Below are positions 4,790 through 62,694 of a stretch of DNA of 64,000 bases, in pieces. A program made the position numbers and the translations under genes. How positions within the stretch are numbered: the stretch's first letter is position 1; each line of letters opens with the position of its first letter. Origin of the DNA: Arion vulgaris (lineage: Eukaryota; Mollusca; Gastropoda; Stylommatophora; Arionidae); the NCBI GenBank assembly GCA_020796225.1, contig CM036758.1:29151099-29215098 (forward strand), given 5' to 3'. The notes beneath the pieces were generated by a model. The model had not been told where the DNA came from. It saw nothing but the letters and a program-made list of their open reading frames with translations, and ran no database searches.

Positions 4790-5040
4790 GTCCCTGCATC
4801 TGTAGCTATGTGGTTATACCCTTGCCTTGAGAGTCAAAGGTCGTGGGTTCGAATCCGGATAGCGCCGTTCTTTTCACGAGTGCATTTTCCCCAGAGATCC
4901 CTAGGATTGTTGCCGGAGCTACAGAGTTCATGCTTTATGAAATAATCTCGGCAGGTGACGTGCCATTTCTGCGGAGAGTAAGAGAGTCATATGGGGTACA
5001 AATTCAGGTGCAATGAGGTCAATCCATCGGCTTTAAAACT
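4790..5040 (+). mobile_element. SINE-B copy 2
   Basis: The head 'ctgtagctatgtggttatac' is followed by an intact B box GGGTTCGAATCC. The body then carries the family marks 'tcacgagtgcattttcccc', 'ggattgttgccggagctac', 'ctcggcaggtgacgtgcc' and 'gtcaatccatcggcttt'. The 3' end 'tttaaaactt' is also the start of the 39-bp array that follows without a gap. Confidence 0.87.
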
Positions 5041-5992: not shown

Positions 5993-6059
5993 ATGCCCTT
6001 TAACCCGGATGTATGTGTAGTCCCTCAACCAACTCATGCCAAGTCTTGCAATCATTTGC

Positions 6060-6745
6060 CTATCTCATGCAGCATAATCCAACTCTTTTGTTTATTGTTA
6101 ATCTCTGCTCAACTCTCTTCTCCATGTATTTCGATGCCTCCCTATCTTTAACTGTCTCGGTGGGTTCCAGGAAATGACCCTTGTTTTTGTATTCCTCTCG
6201 AATTTTCTCAAGGTTTTTTCCTAAACAAAGCCATAGTCTTTTTATAACCTCTGGGTTCACCGGGATATGTCTGTTTCTCTCTATAAGTTTCTCAGTTGTG
6301 AGCCTATCATACCATCTTAGTCCCTCTATTCAGCGTAGACACCAGTTGATGAATGTTTGCAATTTATGCGTTATTATTTTACTCGTTCGCCATGTTTCTG
6401 ACACATACAGAAGAACTGCTTTAACATTGGAGTTTTAAATTCGAATTTTTGTTCTAAATTTGATTTCTTTAGACTTCCATATATTTCATAATGCGATGAA
6501 AGCTCCTCTTGCATTCTGTTTTCTTAATTTTGACATCTTTATTTGTTCTTCTATCTTCTTTGTCTTCATTGCTGCCCAAGTATGTGTATGATTCTAACTC
6601 TTGAAGTGGAGTTTCACCCAGGGAGATCGGATTGTCATTTGCTTGGTTAATTCTCATTATCTTTGTGTTTTCATTATGAATGTTTAACCATAGTTGTTGT
6701 GACATTCGATCAAGTGTGTTTAGTGTATCCTGCATTGACAGATAC
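6060..6745 (-). pseudogene. LINE reverse-transcriptase C-terminal remnant
   Basis: Read on the minus strand, the conceptual product follows the end of a non-LTR retrotransposon reverse transcriptase. From 6735 it reads a '..TLDRMSQQLWLNIHNENTKIMRI' region (the usual L..N..KTK.M motif), then 'ESYTYLGSN' (YLGS motif). After frameshifts comes 'VKAVLLYVSETW' (LLYG.ETW motif), then 'EGLRWYDRLTTEKLIERN', then 'IKRLWLCLGKNLEK', which aligns with the R.W.W.GH.LRK motif. Stops and frameshifts at about 6430-6470 and 6270-6300 make it dead. It is truncated at both ends and lacks the endonuclease and the catalytic YADD core. It is homologous to the remnant that hosts the satellite at 20.1-29.2 kb and gives an unexpanded version for comparison. 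Confidence 0.8.
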
Positions 6746-14724: not shown

Positions 14725-15345
14725 GGGGAGTACCAGAGTTTGGCACACGCAAACGTATAAAGCTAATGAGCGGGAAATCATAACGACAGAGATGAGGTGT
14801 CTTAGAAGAGTTGCAGGTGTGACAATACCAGACAAAATTAGAAATAAAGAAATCAGAAGAAGACTGGATGTGAAACCAGTCTTGCAATTTATCAAATAAC
14901 AACAGATTAAATCGGTTTGGACACCTGACAAGAATGCACTGGTGTCGCCTACCACGGAAGGCGGGGTCTCTGTGGCTAAGTGGTTAAGCCATTTGCCTTG
15001 TGAGTCGAAGGTCGTAGGTTCGAGGGCGGACCGTGCCATTCTGTACACGAGTGCAGTTTTTTCCAGAGACTTATAGGAGTGTTGCAGGAGCTACGGAGTT
15101 CGTGCTTTGTGCAATACCCTCGACAGGTGGCGTGCCATTTCTGCGGAGAGGGACCGAGCCGTATGAGGTAAAACCCGGTGCAATGGAGTCCATCCTTCGG
15201 CTTTTAAACTCTTTAAACAGAGAGCCACACAGAAAAAGTGTAATGAGTACAAGGCAAGAGGAAGACCACGCAAAAGATGGAACGACAGTCTCAAGAACAG
15301 CCTCACGAAAATGAATAACAGCTTACAATGTGCCTTAAAACAAGC
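14725..15345 (+). pseudogene. LINE ORF C-terminal remnant, interrupted by SINE-B
   Basis: The left half translates as '..TTEMRCLRRVAGV' and 'DKIRNKEIRRRLDVKPV', then after a -1/+1 shift near 14896 as 'NRLNRFGHLTRMHW'. This matches the E.R.LRR..G....D.IRN..IR motif and the GH..RM motif common at the end of RTE/CR1-like reverse-transcriptase ORFs. The SINE-B at 14962-15215 then intervenes. The right half continues with 'YKARGRPRKRWNDSL', the GRPR.RW.D motif that normally comes next. This is a different LINE type from the one at 6.0 and 20.1 kb. The upstream catalytic domains are absent. Confidence 0.78.
14962..15215 (+). mobile_element. SINE-B copy 3, inserted in a LINE remnant
   Basis: Head 'gtctctgtggctaagtggtt' (A box), B box GGTTCGAGGGC (one variant), then 'acgagtgcagttttttcc', 'agctacggagttcgtgcttt', 'cgacaggtggcgtgccattt', 'gggaccgagccgtatgagg' and 'gagtccatccttcggctttt'. 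It separates two consecutive parts of a LINE ORF. I could not find a clear target-site duplication by eye. Confidence 0.87.
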
Positions 15346-15809
15346 ACACACAACTAACTACGCCCCCCCCCCAACACTTCTATAAAGAAGTAAATGGTGG
15401 AAGAGAAGAAGAAGAAGAAGAAGACACATATAGAAAGAAATGAATAAACTGTAATGAAAACAAGACACGTTCAGTAACAACATGTCTAACAGAACAAAAT
15501 ATTTTCTTTCAGAATAATTGATTCTTGAGAAAAAAAACAAATACAATACAATAGATAATTTGGTTATTAGACACCGCATAAAACTTCCAGCTATAACCAG
15601 TATAAGCACATTATCACCTTTCTCTATGTGTTTACAACTTCTATATTACCTTCTTGTCTAAACACTTTTCATAATAAGATACTTTATTGAGATACTTTAT
15701 TACATAGACACACCTTTGTTTATGTTGTTCATAATTACCTGTGCAGCAGGTAAGTTTGGGTTGTGTATGTTAACACCAGTATCTCTCACTTGTGTGTTTT
15801 AAAGAAAAA
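15346..15809. other. Unassigned AT-rich sequence with a short (GAA)n run
   Basis: Contains a C9 run (15362-15372) and (AAG)n at about 15400-15425. There is no supported gene; open frames on the minus strand have low-complexity, T-rich origins. Confidence 0.5.
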
Positions 15810-16048
15810 GGGTTTTAAAGCGGAAGGATTGACTTCAATGCACCAGGTTTTATCCCATCTGGCTCGGTCCCTCTCCACAGAAATGGTACGCCACCTGCCG
15901 AGAGTATTGCACAAAGCACGAACTCCGTAGCTCCAGCCACAATCCTAGGGTGTCTGGAAAAATGCACTCGTGAACAGAACGGCGCGGTCCGGATTCGAAC
16001 CCACGACCTTCTATTCACGAGGCAAAGGTCTTAACCACTTAGTCATGC
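15810..16048 (-). mobile_element. SINE-B copy 4, reversed
   Basis: On the minus strand it reads from the head 'gactaagtggttaagacctt' through B box GGGTTCGAATCC and 'gagtgcatttttccagac', to 'tgaagtcaatccttccgctt' and 'taaaac'. It is the cleanest SINE-B copy in the window, with both promoter boxes intact. The 67-codon open frame inside it is not a gene. Confidence 0.88.
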
Positions 16049-17929: not shown

Positions 17930-18240
17930 AATATTGTTTTAGGCCCGTATTTTTTATCTACAGTCGGCAGACGATGGATGGTGTGGTCAACAACATCAAG
18001 CCAACCGCCTTTACTTTCCAGTTACCCAATTGAGGCTGGGTCGACCTGAGAGCCATTACGATCGGACAAATATTACACACCCACTTTGGGATTGAACCAT
18101 GGTTATGCGCCTAAGAAACGAGTTCACTAACAACTACGCTGCTGCAACGAGTTCACTAACAACTACGCTGCTGCAATGAGTTCACTAACAACTACGCTGC
18201 TGCAACGAGTTCACTAACAACTACGCTGCTGCGGTTCTCA
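17930..18240 (-). mobile_element. SINE-C copy 1, reversed, with expanded tRNA-like head
   Basis: The plus strand carries the family marks 'gatggatggtgtggtcaac', 'ccgcctttactttcca', 'gaggctgggtcgacctgaga' and 'cactttgggattgaaccatg' (the B box read in reverse). The end that would be the SINE 5' head ('aacgagttcactaacaacta' plus 'cgctgctgc') is tandemly repeated four times at about 18117-18235, instead of occurring once as at 50240-50270. Confidence 0.78.
18117..18236. repeat. 29-30-bp array made from the SINE-C head, 4 units
   Basis: Four near-identical units of 'gagttcactaacaactacgc' plus 'tgctgcaac'. Each contains the reverse complement of the A-box region of SINE-C. The last unit runs into 'ggttctcaac'. 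Confidence 0.9.
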
Positions 18241-19546: not shown

Positions 19547-20104
19547 CATTGACAACTTGCTCATGACTAGCAATATAATTAAACAACTATAGCTAAGACA
19601 AACTGATATATTATTTATAGATCAACAGCTCGTGTTGAGAGAGATGTAATGACTTGAAATAAACCATATGAGAACGCTGAAAAGCGAAACCACGTAAACA
19701 TGACGTTAATATGACATAAACATAATGTTAAACTAGTAAACAATAACGTTGGATATCAGAAATTTGTTTCACATGTCTGGTACATTGTTACATCATTTAC
19801 TTGTAATTTTTGGTCTAAATATGGGTTGTACATGTAGAATCTATTTTAGATCAGCTATAAATCGTACGCTAATGATATGATTACAGCAGCTGTAAGGCTA
19901 ACGTTGATGTGTAAGGTGGGAGTAATTGTTATGTGCGTTGGTAAACGTTATTATGGATCTGGGGCAGAGGAGAAATGTTTATGTGATGTAATATGTACTT
20001 CATACCTTGCGATTTGCAAAGCGTCTTGGGCATTTTTTCTATTCTTTCAACAAATAAAATCATTATCATATTGTAGTAACAACAAAACAGTTAATATAAA
20101 GCAG
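19547..20104. other. Unassigned sequence
   Basis: No supported gene. The 80-codon frame at 19877-20119 has no recognised motif and ends in the LINE remnant. Confidence 0.5.
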
Positions 20105-23100
20105 ATTATGCTGGAGTAAACAGCTTTACGTGATGTAGAATCATACATATACCTTGGTAGCAACATAGACACAGAAGGAGGAATAAATAAAGATGTCAAG
20201 ATAAGAATATATACCTTGGTAGCAACATAGACACAGAAGGAGGAACAAATAAAGATGCCAAGATAAGAATATAAAAGGTAAGGGAAACGTTATTGCATTG
20301 AGTAAGATATGGAAGTCAAAGGAAATCAAAACACACGCAAAGTTGAGAATCTTTCAATCAAATGTGAAGTCAGTGCTGTTGTATTACTCAGAAACATGGG
20401 GAACAACAAAAGAAAACACCAGAAAACTAGACAGTAAATGGATATCTACTTAGAATAGAGGAAGTGAGATGGTATGATAAGATTACGAACGAGGAACTCA
20501 GAGAAAGAACTAAGCAGATACCGGTGTCAAAACGAACGAGGAACTCAGAGAAAGAACTAAGCAGATACCGGTGTCAAAACGAACGAGGAACTCAGAGAAA
20601 GAACTAAGCAGATACCGGTGTCAAAACGAACGAGGAACTCAGAGAAAGAACTAAGCAGATACCGGTGTCAAAACGAACGAGGAACTCAGAGAAAGAACTA
20701 AGCAGATACTGGTGTCAAAACGAACGAGGAACTCAGAGAAAGAATTAAGCAGATACCGGTGTCAAAACGAACGAGGAACTCAGAGAAAGAATTAAGCAGA
20801 TACCGGTGTCAAAACGAAAGAGGAACTCAGAGAAAGAATTAAGCAGATACCGGTGTCAAAACGAAAGAGGAACTCAGAGAAAGAACTAAGCAGATACCGG
20901 TGTTAAAACGAAAGAGGAACTCAGAGAAAGAATTAAGCAGATACCGGTGTCAAAACAAACGAGGAACTCAGAGAAAGAACTAAGCAGATACCATGTCAAA
21001 ACGAACGAGGAACTCAGAGAAAGAACTAAACAGATACCGGTGTCAAAACGAACGAGGAACTCAGAGAAAGAATTAAGCAGATACCGGTGTCAAAACGAAC
21101 GAGGAACTCAGAGAAAGAACTAAGTAGATACCGGTGTCAAAACGAACGAGGAACTCAGAGAAAGAACTAAACAGATACCGGTGTCAAAACGAACGAGGAA
21201 CTCAGAGAAAGAATTAAGCAGATACCGGTGTTAAAACGAAAGAGGAACTCAGAGAAAGAATTAAGCAGATACCGGTGTCAAAACAAACGAGGAACTCAGA
21301 GAAAGAACTAAGCAGATACCATGTCAAAACGAACGAGGAACTCAGAGAAAGAACTAAGCAGATACCGGTGTCAAAACGAACGAGGAACTCAGAGAAAGAA
21401 TTAAGCAGATACCGGTGTCAAAACGAACGAGGAACTCAGAGAAAGAACTAAGCAGATACCGGTGTTAAAACGAACGAGGAACTCATAGAAAGAATTAAGC
21501 AGATACTGGTGTTAAAACTAACGAGGAAATCAGAGAAAGAACTAAGCAGATACCGGTGTCAAAACGAACGAGGAACTCAGAGAAAGAACTAAGCAGATAC
21601 CGGTGTTAAAACTAACGAGGAACTCAGAGAAAGAACTAAGCAGATACCGGTGTCAAAACGAACGAGGAACTCAGAGAAAGAACTAAGCAGATGCCGGTGT
21701 CAAAACGAACGAGGAACTCAGAGAAAGAATTAAGCAGATACCGGTGTCAAAACGAACGAGGAACTCAGAGAAAGAACTAAGCAGATGCCGGTGTCAAAAC
21801 GAACGAGGAACTCAGAGAAAGAATTAAGCAGATACCGGTGTCAAAACGAACGAGGAACTCAGAGAAAGAATTAAGCAGATACCGGTGTTAAAACTAACGA
21901 GGAACTCAGACAAAGAACTAAGCAGATACCGGTGTCAAAACGAACGAGGAACTCAGAGAAAGAATTAAGCAGATACCGGTGTTAAAACGAAAGAGGAACT
22001 CAGAGAAAGAATTAAGCAGATACCGGTGTCAAAACAAACGAGGAACTCAGAGAAAGAACTAAGCAGATACCATGTCAAAACGAACGAGGAACTCAGAGAA
22101 AGAACTAAGCAGATACCGGTGTCAAAACGAACGAGGAACTCAGAGAAAGAATTAAGCAGATACCGGTGTCAAAACGAACGAGGAACTCAGAGAAAGAACT
22201 AAGCAGATACCGGTGTTAAAACGAACGAGGAACTCATAGAAAGAATTAAGCAGATACTGGTGTTAAAACTAACGAGGAAATCAGAGAAAGAACTAAGCAG
22301 ATACCGGTGTTAAAACTAACGAGGAACTCAGAGAAAGAACTAAGCAGATACCGGTGTCAAAACGAACGAGGAACTCAGAGAAAGAACTAAGCAGATACCG
22401 GTGTTAAAACTAACGAGGAACTCAGAGAAAGAACTAAGCAGATACCGGTATCAAAACGAACGAGGAACTCAGAGAAAGAACTAAGCAGATACTGGTGTCA
22501 AAACGAACGAGGAACTCAGAGAAAGAACTAAGCAGATACCGGTGTCAAAACGAACGAGGAACTCAGAGAAAGAATTAAGCAGATACCGGTGTCAAAACAA
22601 ACGAGGAACTCAGAGAAAGAACTAAGCAGATACCGGTGTCAAAACGAACGAGGAACTCAGAGAAAGAACTAAGCAGATGCCGGTGTCAAAACGAACGAGG
22701 AACTCAGAGAAAGAACTAAGCAGATACCGGTGTCAAAACGAACGAGGAACTCAGAGAAAGAACTAAGCAGATGCCGGTGTCAAAACGAACGAGGAACTCA
22801 GAGAAAGAATTAAGCAGATACCGGTGTCAAAACGAACGAGGAACTCAGAGAAAGAACTAAGCAGATACCGGTGTCAAAACGAACGAGGAACTCAGAGAAA
22901 GAACTAAGCAGATGCCGGTGTCAAAACGAACGAGGAACTCAGAGAAAGAACTAAGCAGATACCGGTGTCAAAACGAACGAGGAACTCAGAGAAAGAACTA
23001 AGCAGATGCCGGTGTCAAAACGAACGAGGAACTCAGAGAAAGAACTAAGCAGATACCGGTGTTAAAACTAACGAGGAACTCAGAGAAAGAACTAAGCAGA

Positions 23101-26100
23101 TACCGGTATCAAAACGAACGAGGAACTCAGAGAAAGAACTAAGCAGATACTGGTGTCAAAACGAACGAGGAACTCAGAGAAAGAACTAAGCAGATACCGG
23201 TGTCAAAACGAACGAGGAACTCAGAGAAAGAATTAAGCAGATACCGGTGTCAAAACAAACGAGGAACTCAGAGAAAGAACTAAGCAGATACCGGTGTCAA
23301 AACGAACGAGGAACTCAGAGAAAGAACTAAGCAGATGCCGGTGTCAAAACGAACGAGGAACTCAGAGAAAGAACTAAGCAGATACCGGTGTCAAAACGAA
23401 CGAGGAACTCAGAGAAAGAACTAAGCAGATGCCGGTGTCAAAACGAACGAGGAACTCAGAGAAAGAATTAAGCAGATACCGGTGTCAAAACGAACGAGGA
23501 ACTCAGAGAAAGAACTAAGCAGATACCGGTGTCAAAACGAACGAGGAACTCAGAGAAAGAACTAAGCAGATGCCGGTGTCAAAACGAACGAGGAACTCAG
23601 AGAAAGAACTAAGCAGATACCGGTGTCAAAACGAACGAGGAACTCAGAGAAAGAACTAAGCAGATGCCGGTGTCAAAACGAACGAGAAACTCAGAGAAAG
23701 AATTAAGCAGATACCGGTGTCAAAACGAACGAGGAACTCAGAGAAAGAACTAAGCAGATACCATGTCAAAACGAACGAGGAACTCAGAGAAAGAATTAAG
23801 CAGATACCGGTGTCAAAACAAACGAGGAACTCAGAGAAAGAACTAAGCAGATACCATGTCAAAACGAACGAGGAACTCAGAGAAAGAATTAAGCAGATAC
23901 CGGTGTCAAAACGAACGAGGAACTCAGAGAAAGAACTAAGCAGATGCCGGTGTCAAAACGAACGAGGAACTCAGAGAAAGAATTAGCAGATACCGGTGTC
24001 AAAACGAACGAGGAACTCAGAGAAAGAATTAAGCAGATACCGGTGTTAAAACTAACGAGGAACTCAGACAAAGAACTAAGCAGATACCGGTGTCAAAACG
24101 AACGAGGAACTCAGAGAAAGAATTAAGCAGATACCGGTGTTAAAACGAAAGAGGAACTCAGAGAAAGAATTAAGCAGATACCGGTGTCAAAACAAACGAG
24201 GAACTCAGAGAAAGAACTAAGCAGATACCATGTCAAAACGAACGAGGAACTCAGAGAAAGAACTAAGCAGATACCGGTGTCAAAACGAACGAGGAACTCA
24301 GAGAAAGAATTAAGCAGATACCGGTGTCAAAACGAACGAGGAACTCAGAGAAAGAACTAAGCAGATACCGGTGTTAAAACGAACGAGGAACTCATAGAAA
24401 GAATTAAGCAGATACTGGTGTTAAAACTAACGAGGAAATCAGAGAAAGAACTAAGCAGATACCGGTGTTAAAACTAACGAGGAACTCAGAGAAAGAACTA
24501 AGCAGATACCGGTGTCAAAACGAACGAGGAACTCAGAGAAAGAACTAAGCAGATACCGGTGTTAAAACTAACGAGGAACTCAGAGAAAGAACTAAGCAGA
24601 TACCGGTATCAAAACGAACGAGGAACTCAGAGAAAGAACTAAGCAGATACTGGTGTCAAAACGAACGAGGAACTCAGAGAAAGAACTAAGCAGATACCGT
24701 GTCAAAACGAACGAGGAACTCAGAGAAAGAATTAAGCAGATACCGGTGTCAAAACAAACGAGGAACTCAGAGAAAGAACTAAGCAGATACCGGTGTCAAA
24801 ACGAACTAGGAACTCAGAGAAAGAACTAAGCAGATGCCGGTGTCAAAACGAACGAGGAACTCAGAGAAAGAACTAAGCAGATACCGGTGTCAAAACGAAC
24901 GAGGAACTCAGAGAAAGAACTAAGCAGATGCCGGTGTCAAAACGAACGAGGAACTCAGAGAAAGAATTAAGCAGATACCGGTGTCAAAACGAACGAGGAA
25001 CTCAGAGAAAGAACTAAGCAGATACTGGTGTCAAAACGAACGAGGAACTCAGAGAAAGAACTAAGCAGATGCCGGTGTCAAAACGAACGAGGAACTCAGA
25101 GAAAGAACTAGCAGATACCGGTGTCAAAACGAATCGAGGAACTCAGAGAAAGAACTAAGCAGATGCCGAGTGTCAAAACGAACGAGGAACTCAGAGAAAG
25201 AACTAAGCAGATACCGGTGTTAAAACTAACGAGGAACTCAGAGAAAGAACTAAGCAGATACCGGTATCAAAACGAACGAGGAACTCAGAGAAAGAACTAA
25301 GCAGATACTGGTGTCAAAACGAACGAGGAACTCAGAGAAAGAACTAAGCAGATACCGGTGTCAAAACGAACGAGGAACTCAGAGAAAGAATTAAGCAGAT
25401 ACCGGTGTCAAAACAAACGAGGAACTCAGAGAAAGAACTAAGCAGATACCGGTGTCAAAACGAACGAGGAACTCAGAGAAAGAACTAAGCAGATGCCGGT
25501 GTCAAAACGAACGAGGAACTCAGAGAAAGAACTAAGCAGATACCGGTGTCAAAACGAACGAGGAACTCAGAGAAAGAACTAAGCAGATGCCGGTGTCAAA
25601 ACGAACGAGGAACTCAGAGAAAGAATTAAGCAGATACCGGTGTCAAAACGAACGAGGAACTCAGAGAAAGAATTAAGCAGATACCGGTGTTAAAACTAAC
25701 GAGGAACTCAGACAAAGAACTAAGCAGATACCGGTGTCAAAACGAACGAGGAACTCAGAGAAAGAATTAAGCAGATACCGGTGTTAAAACGAAAGAGGAA
25801 CTCAGAGAAAGAATTAAGCAGATACCGGTGTCAAAACAAACGAGGAACTCAGAGAAAGAACTAAGCAGATACCATGTCAAAACGAACGAGGAACTCAGAG
25901 AAAGAACTAAGCAGATACCGGTGTCAAAACGAACGAGGAACTCAGAGAAAGAATTAAGCAGATACCGGGGTCAAACGAACGAGGAACTCAGAGAAAGAAC
26001 TAAGCAGATACCGGTGTTAAAACGAACGAGGAACTCATAGAAAGAATTAAGCAGATACTGGTGTTAAAACTAACGAGGAAATCAGAGAAAGAACTAAGCA

Positions 26101-29100
26101 GATACCGGTGTTAAAACTAACGAGGAACTCAGAGAAAGAACTAAGCAGATACCGGTGTCAAAACGAACGAGGAACTCAGAGAAAGAACTAAGCAGATACC
26201 GGTGTTAAAACTAACGAGGAACTCAGAGAAAGAACTAAGCAGATACCGGTATCAAAACGAACGAGGAACTCAGAGAAAGAACTAAGCAGATACTGGTGTC
26301 AAAACGAACGAGGAACTCAGAGAAAGAACTAAGCAGATACCGGTGTCAAAACGAACGAGGAACTCAGAGAAAGAATTAAGCAGATACCGGTGTCAAAACA
26401 AACGAGGAACTCAGAGAAAGAACTAAGCAGATACCGGTGTCAAAACGAACGAGGAACTCAGAGAAAGAACTAAGCAGATGCCGGTGTCAAAACGAACGAG
26501 GAACTCAGAGAAAGAACTAAGCAGATACCGGTGTCAAAACGAACGAGGAACTCAGAGAAAGAACTAAGCAGATGCCGGTGTCAAAACGAACGAGGAACTC
26601 AGAGAAAGAATTAAGCAGATACCGGTGTCAAAACGAACGAGGAACTCAGAGAAAGAACTAAGCAGATACCGGTGTCAAAACGAACGAGGAACTCAGAGAA
26701 AGAACTAAGCAGATGCCGGTGTCAAAACGAACGAGGAACTCAGAGAAAGAACTAAGCAGATACCGGTGTCAAAACGAACGAGGAACTCAGAGAAAGAACT
26801 AAGCAGATGCCGGTGTCAAAACGAACGAGGAACTCAGAGAAAGAACTAAGCAGATACCGGTGTTAAAACTAACGAGGAACTCAGAGAAAGAACTAAGCAG
26901 ATACCGGTATCAAAACGAACGAGGAACTCAGAGAAAGAACTAAGCAGATACTGGTGTCAAAACGAACGAGGAACTCAGAGAAAGAACTAAGCAGATACCG
27001 GTGTCAAAACGAACGAGGAACTCAGAGAAAGAATTAAGCAGATACCGGTGTCAAAACAAACGAGGAACTCAGAGAAAGAACTAAGCAGATACCGGTGTCA
27101 AAACGAACGAGGAACTCAGAGAAAGAACTAAGCAGATGCCGGTGTCAAAACGAACGAGGAACTCAGAGAAAGAACTAAGCAGATACCGGTGTCAAAACGA
27201 ACGAGGAACTCAGAGAAAGAACTAAGCAGATGCCGGTGTCAAAACGAACGAGGAACTCAGAGAAAGAATTAAGCAGATACCGGTGTCAAAACGAACGAGG
27301 AACTCAGAGAAAGAACTAAGCAGATACCGGTGTCAAAACGAACGAGGAACTCAGAGAAAGAACTAAGCAGATGCCGGTGTCAAAACGAACGAGGAACTCA
27401 GAGAAAGAACTAAGCAGATACCGGTGTCAAAACGAACGAGGAACTCAGAGAAAGAACTAAGCAGATGCCGGTGTCAAAACGAACGAGAAACTCAGAGAAA
27501 GAATTAAGCAGATACCGGTGTCAAAACGAACGAGGAACTCAGAGAAAGAACTAAGCAGATACCATGTCAAAACGAACGAGGAACTCAGAGAAAGAATTAA
27601 GCAGATACCGGTGTCAAAACAAACGAGGAACTCAGAGAAAGAACTAAGCAGATACCATGTCAAAACGAACGAGGAACTCAGAGAAAGAACTAAGCAGATA
27701 CCGGTGTCAAAACGAACGAGGAACTCAGAGAAAGAATTAAGCAGATACCGGTGTCAAAACGAACGAGGAACTCAGAGAAAGAACTAAGCAGATACCGGTG
27801 TTAAAACGAACGAGGAACTCAGAGAAAGAATTAAGCAGATACTGGTGTTAAAACTAACGAGGAAATCAGAGAAAGAACTAAGCAGATACCGGTGTCAAAA
27901 CGAACGAGGAACTCAGAGAAAGAACTAAGCAGATACTGGTGTCAAAACTAACGAGGAAATCAGAGAAAGAACTAAGCAGATACCGGTGTTAAAACGAACG
28001 AGGAACTCAGAGAAAGAACTAAGCAGATACCGGTGTTAAAACTAACGAGGAACTCAGAGAAAGAACTAAGCAGATACTGGTGTTAAAACTAACGAGGAAC
28101 TCAGAGAAAGAACTAAGCAGATACCGGTGTCAAAACGAACGAGGAACTCAGAGAAAGAACTAAGCAGATACCGGTGTTAAAACTAACGAGGAACTCAGAG
28201 AAAGAACTAAGCAGATACCGGTGTCAAAACGAACGAGGAACTCAGAGAAAGAACTAAGCAGATGCCGGTGTCAAAACGAACGAGGAACTCAGAGAAAGAA
28301 TTAAGCAGATACTGGTGTTAAAACTAACGAGGAACTCAGAGAAAGAATTAAGCAGATACCGGTATCAAAACGAACGAGGAACTCAGAGAAAGAACTAAGC
28401 AGATACTGGTGTCAAAACGAACGAGGAACTCAGAGAAAGAACTAAGCAGATACCGGTGTCAAAACGAACGAGGAACTCAGAGAAAGAACTAGCAGATACC
28501 GGTGTCAAAACGAACGAGGAACTCAGAGAAAGTACTAAGCAGATACTGGTGTCAAAACGAACGAGGAACTCAGAGAAAGAACTAAGCAGATACCGGTGTC
28601 AAAACGAACGAGGAACTCAGAGAAAGTACTAAGCAGATACTGGTGTCAAAACGAACGAGGAACTCAGAGAAAGAATTAAGCAGATACCGGTGTCAAAACG
28701 AACGAGGAATTCAGATAAAGAATTAAGCAGATACCGGTGTCAAAACGAACGAGGAACTCAGAGAAAGAATTACGCAGATACCGGTGTCAAAACGAACGAG
28801 GAACTCAGAGAAAGAATTAAGCAGATACCGGTCTCAAAACGAACGAGGAATTCAGATAAAGAATTAAGCAGATACCGGTGTCAAAACGAACGAGGAACTC
28901 AGAGAAAGAATTAAGCAGATACCGGTGTTAAAAGAGCTACGAAAGAAACGCTGACGATAGATAGGGCACACATTAAGAAAGCTAACTGTAAGCATTGCAA
29001 GACAGGAACTGTTTGATTAACCCGCAGGGAAAGAGAAGTAAAGGAAGACCTAGAAATACATGGAGAAGAGAGATGGAGACTGATATTAAAAGGATAAGTA

Positions 29101-29165
29101 AGACGTGGAAAGAATTGGAAGGGATAGTAAGAATTCGGAAAGGCTTGAAGACGTTTGTTGAAACA
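20105..29165 (+). pseudogene. LINE reverse-transcriptase remnant split by a 47-bp satellite
   Basis: Left part (20105-20530): 'VESYIYLGSNIDTEGG' (YLGS motif), 'IWKSKEIKTHAKLRIF', 'NVKSVLLYYSETWGTT' (LLYG.ETW motif), then 'RIEEVRWYDKI' leading into 'TNEELRERTKQIPV'. Right part (28900-29165): 'TKQIPV'-type end, 'ELRKKR', 'IGHTLRKLTVSIARQELF' (the GH.LRK motif), 'PQGKRSKGRPRNTWRREMET' (GRP..TWRR motif) and 'ISKTWKELEGI'. These are consecutive parts of the C-terminal region of one non-LTR retrotransposon ORF, with the satellite exactly at the junction. The remnant also has a 62-bp tandem duplication (atatacctt at 20147 and 20209), frameshifts and stops. The catalytic core is absent. The homologue at 6060-6745 (-) has the same order without expansion. 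Confidence 0.85.
20484..28934. repeat. 47-bp satellite derived from a LINE ORF, about 180 units
   Basis: The unit is 'acgaacgaggaactcagaga', 'aagaactaagcagatacc' and 'ggtgtcaaa'. In one frame it encodes TNEELRERTKQIPVSK, which is the reverse-transcriptase sequence expected at this point of the ORF. Since 47 is not a multiple of three, successive units shift frame, and one of the three frames carries a stop ('QRKN*'), so the array is non-coding. Frequent variants are aactaag/aattaag, gataccg/gatgccg, gtgtc/gtgtt, cgaacg/ctaacg/cgaaag, and a 45-bp type lacking GG ('gataccatgtc'). Variant combinations recur at multi-unit spacing, e.g. ggtatc at 22445, 23103, 24603, 25261, 26245 and 26904. Confidence 0.95.
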
Positions 29166-33134: not shown

Positions 33135-36100
33135 CATTTCAGGGGTAGAATGAGAGTTATACAGTGTTAAATAAAAAAACCCAAAACAGGCATACAGAAG
33201 GAGTTATACAGTGCATATAGAACCAATACTGACATATCAGAATGAGTTTTAATGTACATAGAACCAAACTGACATAAAATGAAAGTTATACAGGTCATAG
33301 AACCAAATGGATATCGAATAGAGTTATACAAAGCAATAAAAAAATACAGGCATACCAGAATCGAGTTATACATTTTAGAACAATACTAAAATCAGAATGA
33401 GAGTTAATGCCATAGAACCAAACTGACATACAGAAGAAAGAACAGGCTAAGAACCAATACAGGATATAGAATGCGAGTTATCAGTCCCCAAAAGCCAATA
33501 CGGCAATCAGAATGCGAGTATACAGGGCCCTAGAACCAATATGGCAATCAGAATGCGAGTTTACAGTTACATAGAACAATAGGGGAATCAGAATGCGAGT
33601 TAACAGGGTCATAGAACCAAACTGGTATCAGAACGAGTTATCATGCTAATAGAACCAACACTGAATATCAGAATGAGAGAGACAGTTACATAGAACCAAT
33701 ACTGGCAATCAGAATGCGAGTTTTACAGGCCATAGAAAAAATGAATATCGAATGAGAGTTAGAAGTGCTACAAAAACTTTCTGGCATACAGAATGCAGTT
33801 ATACAGTGCTAAAAGAACCAATATGGCAAAACAGAATGCGAGATACAGTGCTACATAGAACCAATACTGGCATATCAGAATGGGGTTACAGGTTAAAAAG
33901 AACTAATACTGGATACCAGAATGGAGTTTAGTGCTAATAGAACCAATACTGGATATCAGAATGAGAGATAAGGCAAAGAACCAAACTGGGCATACCAGAA
34001 TGCATTATAAGGGTTTGAACCAATACTGGCATACGAATGAGATTTTACATGCTAAAAGAACCAATACTGGATACCAGAATGAGAGTTATACAGTGCCAAA
34101 AGAACAATACTGACAAACGAGAGAGTTATGCAGTGTTAAAAAAAACCAATACTGACATACCAGAATGAGAGAGACAGTGCCAATAGAACCAATACTGACA
34201 TATCAGAATGAGAGTTAGAAGTGCCATATGAAAATACTGACATACCAGAATGAGAGTTAGACAGTTTAAGAACCCAAAATTGGGATACCAGAATGGAGTT
34301 AAAAAGTGCTTTAAAAGAACCAATATGAATACCCGAATGCGAGTTAGACAGTGCATATAGAACCAATACTGGATACCAGAATGAGAGTTTTACAGTGCAC
34401 AAAAACCAAATGACAAACAGAATGAAAGTTAAACAGAAAAGAACCAATACTGGGAAAAAGAATGAGAGTTAGACATGCCAATAGAACCAATACTGACATA
34501 TCAGAATGAGAGTTAGACAGTGCACATAGAACCAAACAGGGAACCAGAAGCGAGTTACAGGGTAAAAACAATACTGACATACCAGAATGGGGTTAGACGT
34601 TTAATAGAACCAATACTGGATACAGAATGCGAGTTATAAAAAAAGAACCAATGCTGACATACCAGAATGGAGTTAGACAGGGTAAAAGAACCAATACTGA
34701 CATACCAGAAGAGAGTATAAGGCTACAAAAACCAATACGAAATTGTAATTAAAAGTCCACATAGAACCAATACTGGCAACCCGAATGAGAGTTTTACAGT
34801 CAATAGAACAATACTGAATATCAAATGAGAGTTATACAGGCAATAGAACCAATATACAAACGTGAAAGAAAAAAAAAGAACCAAACGACAAAAGAAGAGA
34901 GGAAAAGGGACATAGAACCAATTTTTAATATCAGAATGAGAGTTGAAGTGCCAAAGAACCAAAAGGCATACCAGAACGGTTTTAAAAGGCATTGAACCAA
35001 ACTGAATAAAAGAATGAGAGAGAAGGTTTCAAAACCATTATAATAAGAATGGAAGAAGTGTAAGAAAAATGACATACCCGAATGCGAGTTAGACAGTGCC
35101 AAGAACCAATACTGACATACCAGAATGCGAGTTAGACAGTGCTACATAGAACCAAACAGGCAACCAGAATGCGAGTTAGACAGGCTAATAGAACCAATAC
35201 TGACAATCAGAATGAGAGAGACAGTCAATAGAACCAATAAAACCAGAAGGAGTAGACATTTAAAGAACCAAATTTACATATCAGAAAGAGTTATACAGTT
35301 ATATGAACCAATACTGCATACCAGAATGAGAGTTGACAGTGTTACAGGAAACCAATACTGACATACCAGAATGCGAGTTTTGAAAGGGAACAGAACCAAT
35401 ACTGACATACCAGAAGAGAGTTGGGGAAAGGGATAAGAACCAAACGACAACCAGAAATAGAAGTCTCATAGAACCAATACACATACCAGAATGGGGTTAG
35501 ACAGTACAAAAGAACCAATACTGACATACCAGAATGCGAGTTAAAGGAAAAATAGAAAATACTGAATACCAGAATGAGAGTTGACAGTGTTAATAGGGAA
35601 AAAACTGAATACCAGAATGGGGTTAGACAGTGCTAATAGAACCAATTGACATACCAAATGAGAGTTGACATGTTCATAGAAAAAAATACTGAATACCAGA
35701 ATGCGAGTTTTTAGGCAATAGAACCAATACTGACATACCAGAATGGGAAAATTAGACAGTTACATAGAACCCAAAACTGGCATACCAGAATGAGAGTTAT
35801 ACAGTGCTAAAAGAACCAATACGACATATTAGAATGAGAGTTAGACAGTGCTAATAGAACCAATAATGGATACCAGAATGAGAGTATAAGGAAAGAACAT
35901 ACTGAATATCAGAATGAGAGTTATACAGTGCACATAGAACCAATATGACAAATGGGGAAAGAAAGTTAAAAAATAGAACCCAAAATGACATCAGAATGGG
36001 GGTTAAAATGTAAGAAAATACTGACATATCAGAATGAGAGTTAGACAGTGCTACATAGAACCAATACAGGCATACCAGAATGGGGTTATACAGGAAAGAA

Positions 36101-39100
36101 CCAATAGAATACCAGAATGAGAGTTGACAGGTTACATAGAACCAATACTACATTCCCGAATGCGAGTTTGACAGTGCTACAAAAAACCAATACTGACATA
36201 CCAGAATGCGAGTTAGAAGGTACATAGAACCAATACTGACATACCAGAATGCGAGTTAGACAGTGCTACATAGAAAATACAGGCATACCCGAATGGAAGA
36301 AGGCAAAAGAACCAATACTGACATATCAGAATGAGAGAGACAGTGTACATAGAACCCAAAAAGGATACCAGAATGGGGTTTGACATGCCTAGAACCTAAG
36401 GCTACCAGAACGAGTTAGACAAAACCCAAAAACCAATACGACATATCAGAATGAGAGTTATACAGTGCATATAGAACAATACTGACATACCAGAATGAGA
36501 GTTTGACAGTGTTAAAGAACCAATACTGACATACCAGAATGCGAGTTAGAAGTGCACAAGAACCTAACAACCCGAATAGAGTTTGACAGTTTAAGAACCA
36601 ATACTGACATACCAGAATGGAGTTTGACAGTGCCACAAAAACCAATACTACATACCAGAATGGGGTAGACAGGGAATAGAACCAAATGACATACCAGAAT
36701 GCGAGTTTAAAAGGGACATAGAACCAATTGAAACAGAATGAGAGTTAGAAGGCAAAAACCAAACCATAAGAATGGGGGTTAGAAGGAATAGCCAATACTG
36801 ACAACCAGAATGAGGTTTGACATGTTACATAGAACCAAAACTGACATAAGAATGGAGTTAAACACATGAACAAAATGACAACCAGAACGAGTTGATTAAT
36901 AGAACCAAACTAAAAACCAGAATGAAGGAAAAGGAATAGAACCAATACTGACAAATCAGAATGAAAGGCAAAATAGAACAATACTGACATACCAGAATGA
37001 GAGTTTGACAGTGCCAAAGAACCAATACTGACATATCAGAATGAGAGTTAGACAGGCTAATAGAACCAAACAGGATACCAGAATGCATTATAATGAATAG
37101 AACCAATACGACATACCAAAAAAGAGAGAGACAAAAAACCAAACTGGCAACAAACAAAAAAAAAAGTTACAGAACCAATGTACAAACCCGAAAAGGGGAG
37201 AAGAATAGAACCAATACTGACATACCAGAATGAGAGAACAGGCCAAAAACAATACTTAAAAAAATGAGAGTGACAAAAACAAGAACCAAACTAACCAGAA
37301 GGAAAAGTGCTAATAGAACCAATACGAATATCAGAATGAGAGTTTTCAAAACCCAAAAACCAATATAAAATCAGAATGAAAGTTAACAGTGTTAAAGAAC
37401 CAATATGAAACAGAATGAGATTTGACAGTGCTACATAGAACAATACTGAATATCAGAATGGGGTTAGACAGGCTAATAGAAAATAAGGATAAAAAGGAGT
37501 TTTAATTTTTAAAAAAAATACGAATACCAGAATGGAGTTGAAGGTTTCAAAAACCAATACTGACATACCAGAATGGAGTTTGACAGGCTAATAGAACCAA
37601 TACTGACATACCAGAATGCGAGTTAGACAGTGCTATAGAACCAATACTACATACCAGAATGGGGTTAGAAGGCCCTAGAACCAATAGGGCATACCAGAAT
37701 GCGAGTTAGACAGGCTGATAGAACCCAAAAGGGGCATATCAGAATGGGGTTTGACAGTGCACAGAACCAAAGGGATACCAGAAGAATTAGAAAATGCAAA
37801 ACAAAAGGAACGAAGGGGGTTAGAAGTGTAAAAGAACCAATATGAAATAAATAATTATAAGGTATATAGCCAAACTGACATACCAGAATGAGAGTTTGAC
37901 AGGTTAAAGAACTACTGCATACCAGAATGGGGTTAGAATCAAAGAACCAATACTAATACCAGAATGAGAGAGAATGTTACAAAAACCAAATAATACAGAA
38001 TGGAGTTAGACAGTGCTTTTTAAGAACCAATACTGACATACAGAATGAGAGTTAGAAGGGTTAAAAGAACCAAACTGAAAACCAGAATGCGAGTTAGACA
38101 GTGCAATAGAACCAATACTGAATACCAGAATGAGAGAGAAGTGTTTAAAGAACCAATACTGACATCCAGAATGGAAAAGGGACATAGAACCAATACTGAA
38201 AACCAGAATGGGGGTTAAATGTTACATAGAACCAATACTGAATACCAGAATGCGATTTGAATTAAAGAACCAATACTGACATAAGAATGAGAAGAAAATG
38301 AACCAATACTGGCATTAGAATGCGATTTTTAAGTGTTTATGAACCAATACTGACATACCAGAATGCGAGTTATACAGTGCTAAATAGAACCAATACTGAC
38401 ATACCAGAATGCGAGTTAGACAGTGCTAATAGAAAATATGAATATCAAATGGAGTTTGCAGGGACATAGAACCAATACTGACATACCAGAATGGGGTTAA
38501 AAAGGCCCAAAACCCAAAATGGCATATCAGAATGGAGAAAAGTGCCAAAAAACCAATACTGAATACCCGAATGCGAGAACAGGTAATAGAACCAATACTG
38601 ACAAAAGAATGAGATTAAAATTTCATAGAACCCAAAACTGGATATCAGGCAGTTAGAAAAAAAAGAACCAAACTGACATACCAGAATGAGAGTTAGACAG
38701 GCTACAAAAACCAAACTGGGAACGAAAAGCGAGTTTGACAGTGCAAAAAAACTGCATACAAATGAGAGTTAGACAGTGCCATAGAACCAATACACATACC
38801 AGAAAGAGAGACAGTGCTACAAGAACCCAAAACAGGCATACCAGAATGGAGTTGACATACAAGAACCAATACTGACATATCAGAATGAGAGATAAGTGCA
38901 AAAACCAATACTACATACCAGAATGAGAGTTAAATTTTTAAAAGAACCAAATGACATACCAGAAGCAGAGAATGCCCAAAAAACAATATAATACCAGAAT
39001 GAGAGTTAGAAGTGTTAAAGAACCAATATGACATACCAGAAGGAGGAGGGGGAAAAGAACCAAACAATACCAGAAGGAGAGAAGGTTAATGAACCAATAC

Positions 39101-41740
39101 TGACAACCAGAAGGGGTTAGAAAAAGTTAAAAGAACCAAAAACTGACATACCAGAATGGGGTTAGAAGGTTAATAGAACCAATACTGAATACCAGAATGC
39201 GAGTTAGAAGGGAATAGAACCAATACTGACATACCAGAATGGGGTTAGACAGTGTTAATAGAACCAATATACTAAAGAATGGAGTTTGACAGTGCAATAG
39301 AACCAATATGACATACCAGAATGAGAAGGGCAGGGAAAAGAAAATACTGGCAAACAGAACGAGTTATACAGGCCAAGAACCAAACTGACAACCAGAAGCA
39401 AATTTTACAGGAATGAACCAAAAACAACCAAAAGGAGAGAAGGAAAAGAAAAACGACATTAAAGCGAGTTGAATGACAAGAACCAATACTGACATACCAG
39501 AATGAGAGTTAGACAGTGCTACATAGAACCAATACTGGCAATCAGAATGGAGTTAAAAAAGGGGGTTATAGAACAATACTAATACCAGAATGGATTATAA
39601 GGATAAGAACAATACTGAATACAGAATGCAGTTGAAAAAGTAATAGAACAATATGAATATCAGAATGGGGAGAAGTGCAAAAACAATACTAATTTGTGAG
39701 GGGTTTGAAAAGGAATAGAACCCAAAAGGGGAATCAGAAGGGGTTTTACAGGCCAAAGAACCAATACTGACATACCAGAATGCGAGTTATAAGTCAAAGA
39801 ACCAAACTGACATACCAGAATGAGAGTTTGACAGTGCCATAGAACCAATACTGGGATACAAAGGAGTTTGACAGTGCTACAAGAACCAATACTGACATAC
39901 CAGAATGAGAGGCAGGCACATAGAACCAATACTGGCATATCAGAAGCGAGTAAAAGGCTAAAAGAACCAATACGACATATCAGAATGGGTAGACAGTGCC
40001 ATAGAAACTAAACAACCAGAATGAGAGGACAGTGTAATAGAACCAAAACAACTGAATGCATTAAAGGCAAATAGAACCAAATACATTAGAATGAGAGTTT
40101 TAAGTGTTATAGAACAAATAATACAGAATGGGGTTAGAAGGAAGAAAATATGAATAAGAATGCGAGTTAGAAGGCTAAAGAACCCAAACTGACATACCAG
40201 AATGAGAGTTAGACAGTGTTAATAGAACCAATACTGAAAACCAGAATTTATTAGAAGGAATAGAACAATACTGACATACCAGAATGAGAGTTAGAATGTT
40301 CAAGAACCAAATAATACCAGAAAGAGCAGAAAAGGGAATAGAACCAATATGACATACCAGAATGAGATTTGACAGGTTATAGAACCAAACGACATACCAG
40401 AAGGAGTTAGAAGTGCTAATAAAAAATACTGACATACCAGAATGAGAGTTAGACAAAATAGAACCAAATGAATACCAGAATGGAGTTTGAAGGTAATAGA
40501 ACCAATACTGACATACCAGAATGAGAGTTAGACAGTTAAAAGAACAATACTGGCATATCAGAATGGGGTTATAAGGCCAAAGAACAATACTGACATACCA
40601 GAATGCGAGTTTTAAAAAGGGTATATAGAACCAAACTGACATACCAGAATGCGAGTTATACAGTGTACAAAAACCAATACTGAATACCAGAATGAGAGTT
40701 AGAATGCCAATAGGCCAATACTGGATATCAGAATGCGAGTTAGACAGTGCCATAGCCAAAATAATACCAGAATGAGAGTTTGACAGGATACATAGAACCA
40801 AATGGCATATCAGAATGCGAGATACAGGGAAAGAACAATATGAATACCAGAATGGGGGTTATAATGCAATTTGAACCTACTGAATACCAGAATGCGAGTT
40901 AGACAGGTAATAGAAAATACTGACATATCAGAATGGAGTTAGAAGTGCTAATGAACCAATACTGAATACCAGAAAGAGATAGACAGTGCCACAAGAACCA
41001 ATACTGCATATCAAATGCAAGTTTTCAGTGCACATAGAACCAATACGACATACCAGAATGCGAGTTTTACAGTGCTACATAGAACCAATACTGACATACC
41101 CGAATGAGAGTTAGACAGTGCTAATAGAACCAATACTGGATATCAGAATGCGAGTTACAGGCTACATAGAACCAATACTGACATACCAGAATGGGGTTTG
41201 AAGGCCCTAAACCAAACGAATCAGAAAGGGGTTATAATCACAAGAACCAATACTGACATCCAGAACAAATTATAAAGGGATATAGAACCAAATGACAACC
41301 AGAATGCTTTTAATGCTAAAAGAACCAATACTGACATACCAGAATGAGAGTTAGAAGTGCTACATAGAACCAATACTGGGATATCAGAAGGAGTTTTAAA
41401 TGTAATAGAACAAAATGACATACCAGAATGCAGATAATAAAGAACAATACTGACAAAGAACGAGAGAATGAAAAGAACCAAATGAAATATCAGAATGCGA
41501 GTTAGACAGTGCTAATAGAACCTACTGACATACCAGAATGAGAGAGACAGCACATGGGGAAACCCAAAGGGCAATGAATTGTTATAAGGAAAAGAACCAA
41601 TACGACATACAAGAATGCGAGTTATAAGTGCTAAAAAACCAAACTGACATCAGAATGAGAGTTAGAAGTGCTAAGAACCAAACTGGATATCAGAATGCGA
41701 GTTTTAATGCTACATAGAACCAATTGACATACGGATGAGT
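33135..41740. repeat. 46-bp satellite-like array, heavily indel-ridden, about 190 units
   Basis: The consensus unit joins 'gagagttagacagtgctaca', 'tagaaccaatactgacata' and 'ccagaat'. Intact units occur throughout (e.g. around 36010-36060, 36170-36250, 39480-39530 and 41090-41110). Most are missing one to ten bases, or have short runs of a, g or t in their place. Minus-strand frames made of 'SHSGMSVLVL' and 'FWYVSIGS' are translations of the unit in different frames. The real period is probably near-perfect, and the damage technical. Confidence 0.93.
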
Positions 41741-49984: not shown

Positions 49985-50276
49985 GTACCCTTTAGTAAAA
50001 GTAAATAAAGTAAAGGAACCCTTTCATACCTCGTGGTATATAGGGCAATACAGTGTTAGGCCTGTATCGTTCATTGACCGTCGGAACACGATGGGTGATG
50101 TGGTCAGCATCACGCCGGCCGCCTTTACTTTCCCAGAGTCTGGTACGAAGTTGAGGCTGGGTCGACCTGAGAGCCGTTGCTGTCGGGAAAAATTCCACGC
50201 CCCCACTGCGGGAGTTGAACCCGGACCACCAGCCTTGAGAAACTAGTTTACTAACAACTACGCTACCGCGGATCTA
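49985..50276 (-). mobile_element. SINE-C copy 2, reversed, cleanest copy
   Basis: On the minus strand it starts with 'cgcggtagcgtagttgttag' (A box), then B box GGTTCAACTCCC, followed by 'ctctcaggtcgacccagcct' and 'gtaaaggcggccggcgtgat'. The tail passes 'acgatacaggcctaacactg' to an AT/AAG-rich end. It matches 17930-18240 and 53055-53210. The overlapping open frames in both directions are spurious. Confidence 0.8.
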
Positions 50277-50339
50277 ACCCTTTAGTACAGTCCTTTAAAC
50301 CTTTACGTTCATGTGTGGTTTAAGTATTTTTTTATAATG

Positions 50340-50578: not shown

Positions 50579-50729
50579 ATTACTCGTAATTATGAAAGTT
50601 AATAATAAACGATTGGTGGTGCATATTGACAAAATAAATGCAGAGAATATAGAAATTAAAAATGCATATATAGAAATAGATGAAGGTAAAGAGAATACGA
50701 GGCAGAAACCACAAAAAGAATGATTGAAG
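50579..50729. other. Short unassigned spacer
   Basis: About 150 bp with no recognised feature before the 60-bp array. Confidence 0.5.
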
Positions 50730-51628
50730 TATAATATTGAAATATATCTAGAAATACTATGAGTCAACAATGAGTAAGACAAGAACTAGTATAATATTGA
50801 AATATATCTAGAAATACTATGAGTCAACAATGAGTAAGACAAGAACTAGTATAATATTGAAATATATCTAGAAATACTATGAGTCAACAATGAGTAAGAC
50901 AAGAACTAGTATAATATTGAAATATATCTAGAAATACTATGAGTCAACAATGAGTAAGACAAGAACTAGTATAATATTGAAATATATCTAGAAATACTAT
51001 GAGTCAACAATGAGTAAGACAAGAACTAGTATAATATTGAAATATATCTAGAAATACTATGAGTCAACAATGAGTAAGACAAGAACTAGTATAATATTGA
51101 AATATATCTAGAAATACTATGAGTCAACAATGAGTAAGACAAGAACTAGTATAATATTGAAATATATCTAGAAATACTATGAGTCAACAATGAGTAAGAC
51201 AAGAACTAGTATAATATTGAAATATATCTAGAAATACTATGAGTCAACAATGAGTAAGACAAGAACTAGTATAATATTGAAATATATCTAGAAATACTAT
51301 GAGTCAACAATGAGTAAGACAAGAACTAGTATAATATTGAAATATATCTAGAAATACTATGAGTCAACAATGAGTAAGACAAGAACTAGTATAATATTGA
51401 AATATATCTAGAAATACTATGAGTCAACAATGAGTAAGACAAGAACTAGTATAATATTGAAATATATCTAGAAATACTATGAGTCAACAATGAGTAAGAC
51501 AAGAACTAGTATAATATTGAAATATATCTAGAAATACTATGAGTCAACAATGAGTAAGACAAGAACTAGTATAATATTGAAATATATCTAGAAATACTAT
51601 GAGTCAACAATGAGTAAGACAAGAACTA
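50730..51628. repeat. 60-bp minisatellite, about 15 identical units
   Basis: Each unit runs 'tataatattgaaatatatct', 'agaaatactatgagtcaaca', 'atgagtaagacaagaactag'. I saw no difference between any two units, unlike every other array here. The array ends with a unit that switches to 'aactaagaac'. Confidence 0.97.
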
Positions 51629-53649: not shown

Positions 53650-53945
53650 CATAGACTTCTTATTCTTCTACTTCTCTTAACTCCCCTTGAAGCATAGGGT
53701 AGCAACAAATTTCCTCCAACCAGATCTGTCTTGAACAAGTCAGCTTAGTTCATTCCGGGTCTTTCCCAATTCTTTATTTTGCTCTGTCTAGTTGGTCTCC
53801 ATGTCTCTCTAGGTCGTCCCCTGCCTCTCTTGCCTTTCGGATTCCATTTTACAGCCACATATGGTTGACTAGTTTCTTCACCTTTGCCCCTAGAGAGGCA
53901 TAGCTCCACAACCAAGACCTTCCAAGCCCACCTATCCAAGGTGAT
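53650..53945 (-). pseudogene. LINE ORF extreme C-terminal remnant
   Basis: Minus-strand translation from 53945 gives 'WAWKVLVVELCLSRGKGEET', then 'VKWNPKGKRGRGRPRETWR' (the NP.GKR.RGRP..TWRR motif), then a short 'IKNWERPG' block. After a stop comes 'ADLFKTDLVGGNLLLPYASR', resembling the W..LV.ALC..R end of these ORFs. Only the last 90 or so residues of the ORF are present. It belongs to the same broad LINE type as 6.0 and 29.0 kb. Confidence 0.72.
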
Positions 53946-54029
53946 CTTTACCAGATCTCTCCAAATTTTCTTGCCATGAGTCCCTCTTTGCTGGGTCCTT
54001 CTTCTTCGGGTGGCAAGTTATGAATTTCC

Positions 54030-56293: not shown

Positions 56294-56356
56294 AGAATAA
56301 CGTTTTTTCAGTCAACAACCAACTAGCTTTAAAAAAACCAACTTCACTTTGTCTTT
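56294..56356. other. Unique spacer between two arrays
   Basis: About 60 bp of non-repeated DNA. Confidence 0.7.
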
Positions 56357-62300: not shown

Positions 62301-62449
62301 ATAGAACATCAAGTCAGATTCAACTAGCGTCGACTACACAACATAGAACATCAAGTCAGATTCAACTAGCGTCGACTACACAACATAGAACATCAAGTCA
62401 GATTCAACTAACGTCGACTACACAACATAGAACATCAAGTCAGATTCAA
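56357..62449. repeat. 42-bp satellite-like array, about 145 units
   Basis: Unit joins 'caaatagcgtcgactacaca', 'acatagaacatcaagtcaga' and 'tt'. I saw no indels; unit length is constant. Variation is almost confined to a few bases: caAatag/caCtag/caGtag, taGcg/taAcg/taCcg, gCg/gAg and gacTaca/gacAaca. Nearly every unit has a SalI site (GTCGAC), lost once near 59690 (gtcaac). Rare types such as 'tagagtcg' sit at multiples of 42 bp (56781, 57159, 58587, 59847, 60393, 61443), and long blocks of units recur in the same order. Confidence 0.97.
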
Positions 62450-62694
62450 ACAGTATTTGCACAAACACATACTATTAGTTTGTGTGTGTGTATATAAATA
62501 TGAGACGAGACAACCACATATAAACAGACAATTATATACATATAACATGTTGTGTGCGTTTGTATATGTGTGAATATCAGATTCTCACCGGAGACTAAAG
62601 ACTTGTTTACTATCTATTATTTAAATAATTAAATAGTTTGTCTGTGATTTCAATTGATAGAATGTACAGACAATGAATTCAGACTTTTAGGTTA
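62450..62694. other. Unassigned sequence with a short GT/TA repeat
   Basis: Includes 'gtgtgtgtgtatata' (about 62480-62494). No gene. Confidence 0.5.

Follow-up and report, generated by a model that had tools for sequence, protein, structure and literature searches.

The stretch of DNA analysed here (the window) comprises 64,000 nucleotides of the Arion vulgaris genome (C6:29151099–29215098 of a 1.52-Gb genome in 3,227 contigs). TRF identifies an array of period 47 on the forward strand, with 180.0 copies and a 95% match, at positions 20485–28933. Wrap-around alignment and translation resolve this array, whose copy number is that of one assembly, into 180 units of 47 bp plus 1 bp, the unit encoding TNEELRERTKQIPV in the frame of a LINE that lies on both sides. 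The left flank (20081–20484, forward strand) is a degenerate C-terminal part of the LINE coding sequence ending in ...VRWYDKI and is matched in tblastn searches by the protein relatives P0001, P0002, P0004 and P0005, with similarity to P0002 and P0005 extending back to approximately 20081. The right flank (28934–29162, forward strand) carries the frameshifted continuation ELRKKR...GRPRNTWRR..., which is matched by P0001 residues 65–159 (28886–29158, the last unit included) and by P0005 as far as 29162. Translation across the array gives the order ...EVRWYDKI / TNEELRERTKQIPV / ELRKKR...IGHTLRK...GRPRNTWRR, and the right flank additionally encodes NPQGKRSKGRPRNTWRR in another frame. Stops and frameshifts are present in the flanks, and the host LINE is degenerate.

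The unit peptide corresponds to P0001 residues 65–78. P0001 residues 1–83 align at 20298–20588, the end of this match being stretched by a gap into units 2 and 3; together with the placement of residues 65–159 over the last unit and the right flank, this shows that the left flank stops at the start of a unit and that the right flank starts at the end of one. The two flanks are thus adjacent parts of one protein with one unit between them, and by alignment and tblastn the transposable element (TE) that borders the array on both sides is the source of the unit itself. These placements bear out the proposal of the first-pass annotation that a LINE coding fragment was amplified approximately 180-fold in place. 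A search for a target-site duplication of the host LINE produced only the 7 bp AACAAAA at 20081 and 29162, which is close to chance (0.7 expected).

The left flank also contains a 62-bp tandem duplication (20147–20273, forward strand; TRF), which extends 3 bp past two copies; its presence had been reported correctly, and it lies 212–338 bp upstream of the array. Two further copies of the LINE are found in the window, both on the reverse strand. One (6018–6735; P0001 match 6482–6018) is more diverged, forms the longest end branch of the tree described below and, as previously noted, has a single unit, TTEKLIERNRHIPV. The other is a fragment (53680–54011) matched by P0001 residues 86–163 and by P0002, in which the matches begin behind the unit.

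When the read-through, joined and X-masked, was used as a protein query, 43 relatives were found; those named are from Littorina saxatilis and A. vulgaris, and P0001 is the best match (71% identity over 96% of the query). The host sequence with one unit aligns to the 30 of these relatives that were included in the alignment without a single gap column, and none of the 30 has an extra unit; P0029 has a duplication of a different stretch further on. The left flank matches the Pfam family DUF6451 (E = 3.4 × 10−14). In P0002, P0005 and P0041 an RVT_1 match (E = 1.5 × 10−5, 1.1 × 10−6 and 3.4 × 10−6, respectively, each below the Pfam cut-off) is followed by DUF6451 above the cut-off; by this domain order the amplified stretch is predicted to sit behind the reverse transcriptase (RT) domain and the host is assigned to the C-terminal portion of such an element, a LINE. 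The earlier placement of the array inside an RT reading frame holds as regards LINE coding sequence but probably not as regards the RT domain. The LINE is presumably RTE-like. With NCBIfam, P0001 had no hit, and the hits of P0002 and P0005 were confined to bacterial RT models that fell far short of their cut-offs; a search for the LINE protein in plasmids produced no match, and DUF6451 was not found described in the literature searched.

Within the array, the wrap-around alignment distinguishes 33 unit types, one of which is the 1-bp end piece, and the mean pairwise difference between units is 4.7%. The unit map shows tandem blocks of 14 units and a larger block, units 37–72, that is identical to units 118–153 with zero differences. 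A thymine at position 43 (T43) is present in 180 of 180 units. A coding role for the array was considered and rejected, the unit length not being a multiple of three; the longest open frames listed inside it have 108 residues, and one of these showed no relatives among the 7,995 candidates sharing most words. Rfam and tRNA scans gave no match, nor did a search of viral contigs with a 25-bp piece of the unit. No function is needed for this array, and none is shown by it.

Tandem arrays are abundant throughout the window: 34 stretches, one of them the noisy region at 33.2–41.7 kb, occupy 62% of it, so that the proneness to duplication suggested earlier is not special to the LINE locus. An array that was inserted should end at a random phase, whereas an in-place duplication should end at a whole number of copies plus the breakpoint overlap. 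This was assessed for 26 clean arrays out of 87 TRF rows, leaving aside microsatellites, overlapping rows, the noisy sequence at 30–41.7 kb and the rows at 55.8–56.3 kb. Fourteen of the 26 extend 0–6 bases past a whole copy number (6.3 expected, p ∼ 7 × 10−4); the excess persists among arrays of about three copies or more (11 of 21, 5.0 expected, p = 0.002) and among periods of at least 20 with the LINE array omitted (nine of 18, 3.6 expected, p = 0.004). The remaining 12 fall outside this range, three of them one base short of a whole copy. A second in-place case is a 29-bp array of 4.0 copies (18117–18232, forward strand; TRF and paralogue comparison) within another dispersed element, of which a paralogue with one unit lies at 50047–50330 (forward strand; element comparison). 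Homology to the paralogue resumes behind the array, with a score that seven of 500 shuffled right flanks also reached.

Other features of the window were observed in passing. An open frame of 2,054 codons (56333–62497) runs through a 42-bp array of 145 copies, which encodes a 14-residue repeat with variation nearly all at two codons, each change altering the residue. This could be a chance frame, as a 42-bp unit often leaves one frame open, or a repetitive protein. A dispersed element of approximately 240 bp with tRNA-like boxes, which we take to have the look of a SINE, occurs in four copies (1491–1715, 4799–5031, 14973–15214 and 15807–16045), and a 39-bp array of ten copies at 5032 starts in the final bases of one of them. 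The 60-bp array of 15 copies at 50728–51628 is probably very recent, since its matches are 100%. The region at 33186–41703 consists of a 40–45 bp repeat with 65–80% self-match and many indels. Unusual sequence adjoins it near 30 and 42 kb, and the region has the appearance of long reads that were insufficiently corrected.

A dimer of the 47-bp unit was searched against the A. vulgaris genome; scoring covered 40 of the 107 candidates from the first look and passed over common words, so that the counts are lower bounds. At least 124 matches were obtained, representing the window array and 39 other loci. In 32 of these 39 the unit is single, and seven carry tandem arrays of other periods over the same segment (55 bp at L009; 26 bp at L010–L014 and L029). 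No second 47-bp array was found among the loci matched (40 of 107 candidates scored, so that one might be missed), and none of these loci provides a source of the unit free of LINE sequence. A strict single-unit pattern has 716 matches in the genome, other copies of the LINE thus holding the piece once. The 47-bp unit, repeated 180 times in tandem, lies within the size range of minisatellites (approximately 10–100 bp), and the array occurs at one locus among the candidates scored, whereas a classical satellite is abundant at many loci or in heterochromatin. On the basis of its period and the genome search, it is a single-locus minisatellite and not a genome-wide satellite; of the earlier description as a LINE-derived satellite, the tandem structure and the LINE origin are retained.

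The same LINE segment has given rise to arrays of other periods elsewhere in the genome. A strict pattern for the left junction of the 26-bp class has 52 matches, two of them less than 170 bp apart, and a strict right-junction pattern has 21, comprising 18 at 26 bp and one each at 25, 39 and 18 bp. The junction and single-unit patterns demand exact letters, which makes each count a minimum, and the letters demanded do not correspond throughout from one pattern to the next. The 18-, 39- and 55-bp arrays were each found at one locus, the last (L009, refetched as L078) having 30.0 copies, LINE sequence at its right and a few LINE bases at its left. An 18-mer core, AAGCAGATACCAGTGGAG, occurs 5,206 times in the genome, with clusters at 26-bp spacing among the first 100 places listed; three clusters that were fetched contain 26-bp arrays of 19 (L081), 56 (L082) and 186 (L080) copies by TRF. 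A further long array (L014, refetched as L079) has 106 copies and LINE sequence only at its right. The 27 measured arrays of the 26-bp class, L029 being left out, range from 2.2 to approximately 185 copies. The small ones have 2.2, 2.3, 2.4, 2.5, 2.7, 3.3 (two), 3.4 (three) and 3.5 copies, the middle ones 4.2, 4.3, 5.3, 5.5, 6.5, 7.3, 8.1, 8.4, 9.3 and 10.4, and the long ones 19, 42, 56, 59.5 (cut at the locus end), 106 and 185. Such visible origins, including that of the second element in the window, are therefore not as rare as the first-pass annotation had supposed.

Two of these periods coincide with the spacing of short direct repeats in this LINE subfamily: the 8-bp repeat GAGAAAGA is spaced 26 bp and CTCAG is spaced 39 bp, the period of the one 39-bp array. 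The founding unit of the 26-bp class is thus bounded by a direct repeat of the 5–10 bp size in the Haber–Louis model. The right-hand GAGAAAGA is present at 18 of 21 tandem junctions versus six of the 50 single copies listed (of 716; Fisher p = 4 × 10−9), a comparison that is confounded with age and subfamily. Young intact LINE copies mostly carry GGGAGAGA...GAGAGAGA in place of the GAGAAAGA repeat. At L081 (C1:2222000–2225400) one LINE copy has three arrays touching the coding stretch (29 bp × 29, 26 bp × 19 and 27 bp × 5) with a 29 × 2 duplication close by, and tandem duplications are found towards the C-terminus of two further copies (77 bp × 3.1 at L016 and 20 bp × 7.9 at L040). Nine of the 30 best LINE matches (L061, L064–L066, L070, L073–L075 and L077) start at P0001 residue 6 with a 160-codon open frame, which suggests a young truncated subfamily.

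The gap-free fit of one unit between adjacent flanks, together with the lack of an extra unit in the relatives, indicates that the 47-bp array grew where it stands, and it is very probably a minisatellite that arose within a LINE copy at its present site. That the LINE instead captured a ready-made satellite can be practically dismissed: nothing was found in its favour, and what the unit encodes, in frame between the two flanks, is a conserved peptide of the LINE itself, seen at that place in each of the 30 aligned relatives. That assembly produced the array, or its length, is also most improbable. The large identical blocks within it and the resemblance of 33186–41703 to poorly corrected reads would fit such an artefact, but the unit differences are ordered, stray indels are few and arrays from the same segment exist at many other loci.

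A further alternative is that the units were already tandem in a source element and were spread by retrotransposition rather than being born in each copy. For the 47-bp array this would call for a second copy with two units, and none was found among the loci examined. The question is more pertinent to the 26-bp class, for which L079 and L080 share a common right junction and both begin inside the array, with the LINE absent at the left. A tree built from the LINE flanks with the unit removed is star-like with one starred inner branch, and its starred branches force only a single origin; it covers 91 of 94 rows, L038, L079 and L084 (among which are two 26-bp arrays) having been dropped for low coverage. 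Against a common source, the 26 array rows of this class require 22 changes on the tree, so that they cluster no more than shuffled labels do (mean 22.7; 213 of 500 as low). In addition, at 14 of the 21 strict junctions the inner units have the left form of the repeat and at five the right form, indicating that the breakpoints differ between loci. Units of this class differ by 6.0% within loci and 9.1% between them (25 loci), which would fit in-place birth or local homogenization alike. Spread of ready-made tandem units is on balance unlikely. We read the 26-bp arrays as repeated independent births, as judged from flanks and junctions, with a single origin followed by transposition possible for some loci.

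For the 47-bp array, birth in place may be reconstructed as follows. Single LINE copies mostly read ...CCGGTGGAGAAAGAGCTA... or CCAGTG..., whereas the host reads ...CCGGTGTTAAAAGAGCTA...; with this reading and T43 in all 180 units, the host copy would most simply have lost the 8-bp repeat GAGAAAGA before expansion, although homogenization could blur this order. An overlap of 1 bp at a junction is an outcome of end joining or of fill-in at a staggered break. The first step would then have been a 47-bp duplication joining ends with a 1-bp overlap, probably by one of these routes rather than by slippage between long direct repeats. Its breakpoints match no clear direct repeat, and the 1-bp overlap is shorter than the repeats of the Haber–Louis model. 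Two candidate seed repeats were rejected: AGGAA occurs at a spacing of 47 in LINE copies but the junction lies elsewhere, and ACGA predicts a period of 46. Subsequent growth, as suggested by the unit map, could have added blocks of 14 to 36 units through unequal exchange, or through the repair of breaks, where units had paired out of register. In other LINE copies the same segment would have seeded other periods, mostly the 26 bp set by GAGAAAGA. Taken more broadly, it seems rather probable that one LINE coding segment serves as a recurrent cradle of minisatellites, with independent births in dozens of copies and at least five periods (18, 26, 39, 47 and 55 bp), small differences in direct repeats deciding which period arises and how often.

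The beginnings of minisatellites are still poorly explained. If the recurrent-cradle reading is true, the series from one unit through two to approximately 185 is a natural experiment on minisatellite birth and growth, and the LINE-segment arrays may serve as such. Within one genome, similar sequences with a single unit number in the hundreds and duplicated ones in the dozens, and their copy numbers form a series, so that the effect of the direct repeat, the breakpoint overlap and age on birth could be counted directly. For the window array, the protein frame provides an outside proof of in-place origin.

Arrays from this LINE segment were not found described in the literature searched, part of which was available as excerpts, but minisatellites born from TEs are already known. 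In the available portions of Ahmed and Liang (2012; PMC3389668), 7,276 human minisatellite arrays (23%) are assigned to TEs, 601 of them to L1 among those outside LTR12 and L1PA; growth in situ and hotspots are described, and two established models explain only 6% of the TE-derived cases. Those arrays resemble the present ones in that a piece of a TE copy became a tandem unit and multiplied in situ, but they mostly have two units, compared with up to 180 and approximately 185 here, and the present set differs in its single coding segment, its five periods and its reading-frame proof of origin. The parts seen of PMC6947457 list Alu-, B1-, LTR- and LINE-derived minisatellites. As cited there and in PMC3389668, the model of Haber and Louis (1998) and the work of Jurka and Gentles, Armour and Kelly describe minisatellites from Alu, B1 and LTR sequences seeded by flanking direct repeats of 5–10 bp. 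The 26-bp unit, whose ends are marked by an 8-bp direct repeat that the single-copy element already has, is of this type as far as these citations describe it, whereas the 47-bp array with its 1-bp overlap lies outside the model. Satellites of the Ogre LTR retrotransposons, as presented in the available part of PMC7004042, are likewise TE-internal tandem units that sometimes grow long, but their short arrays are part of the element itself and are shared by many of its copies, whereas the other LINE copies examined here have the 47-bp unit once. PROsat (LINE-1 derived) and the CR1-derived chicken satellites, compared by their table entries in PMC6947457, are also LINE-derived tandem repeats. 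Against the background of these partly available sources, the 47-bp array is a clear example of a recurrent phenomenon, and what stands out is the reading-frame proof, together with how many arrays one coding segment has produced and how widely their periods and copy numbers vary within one genome.
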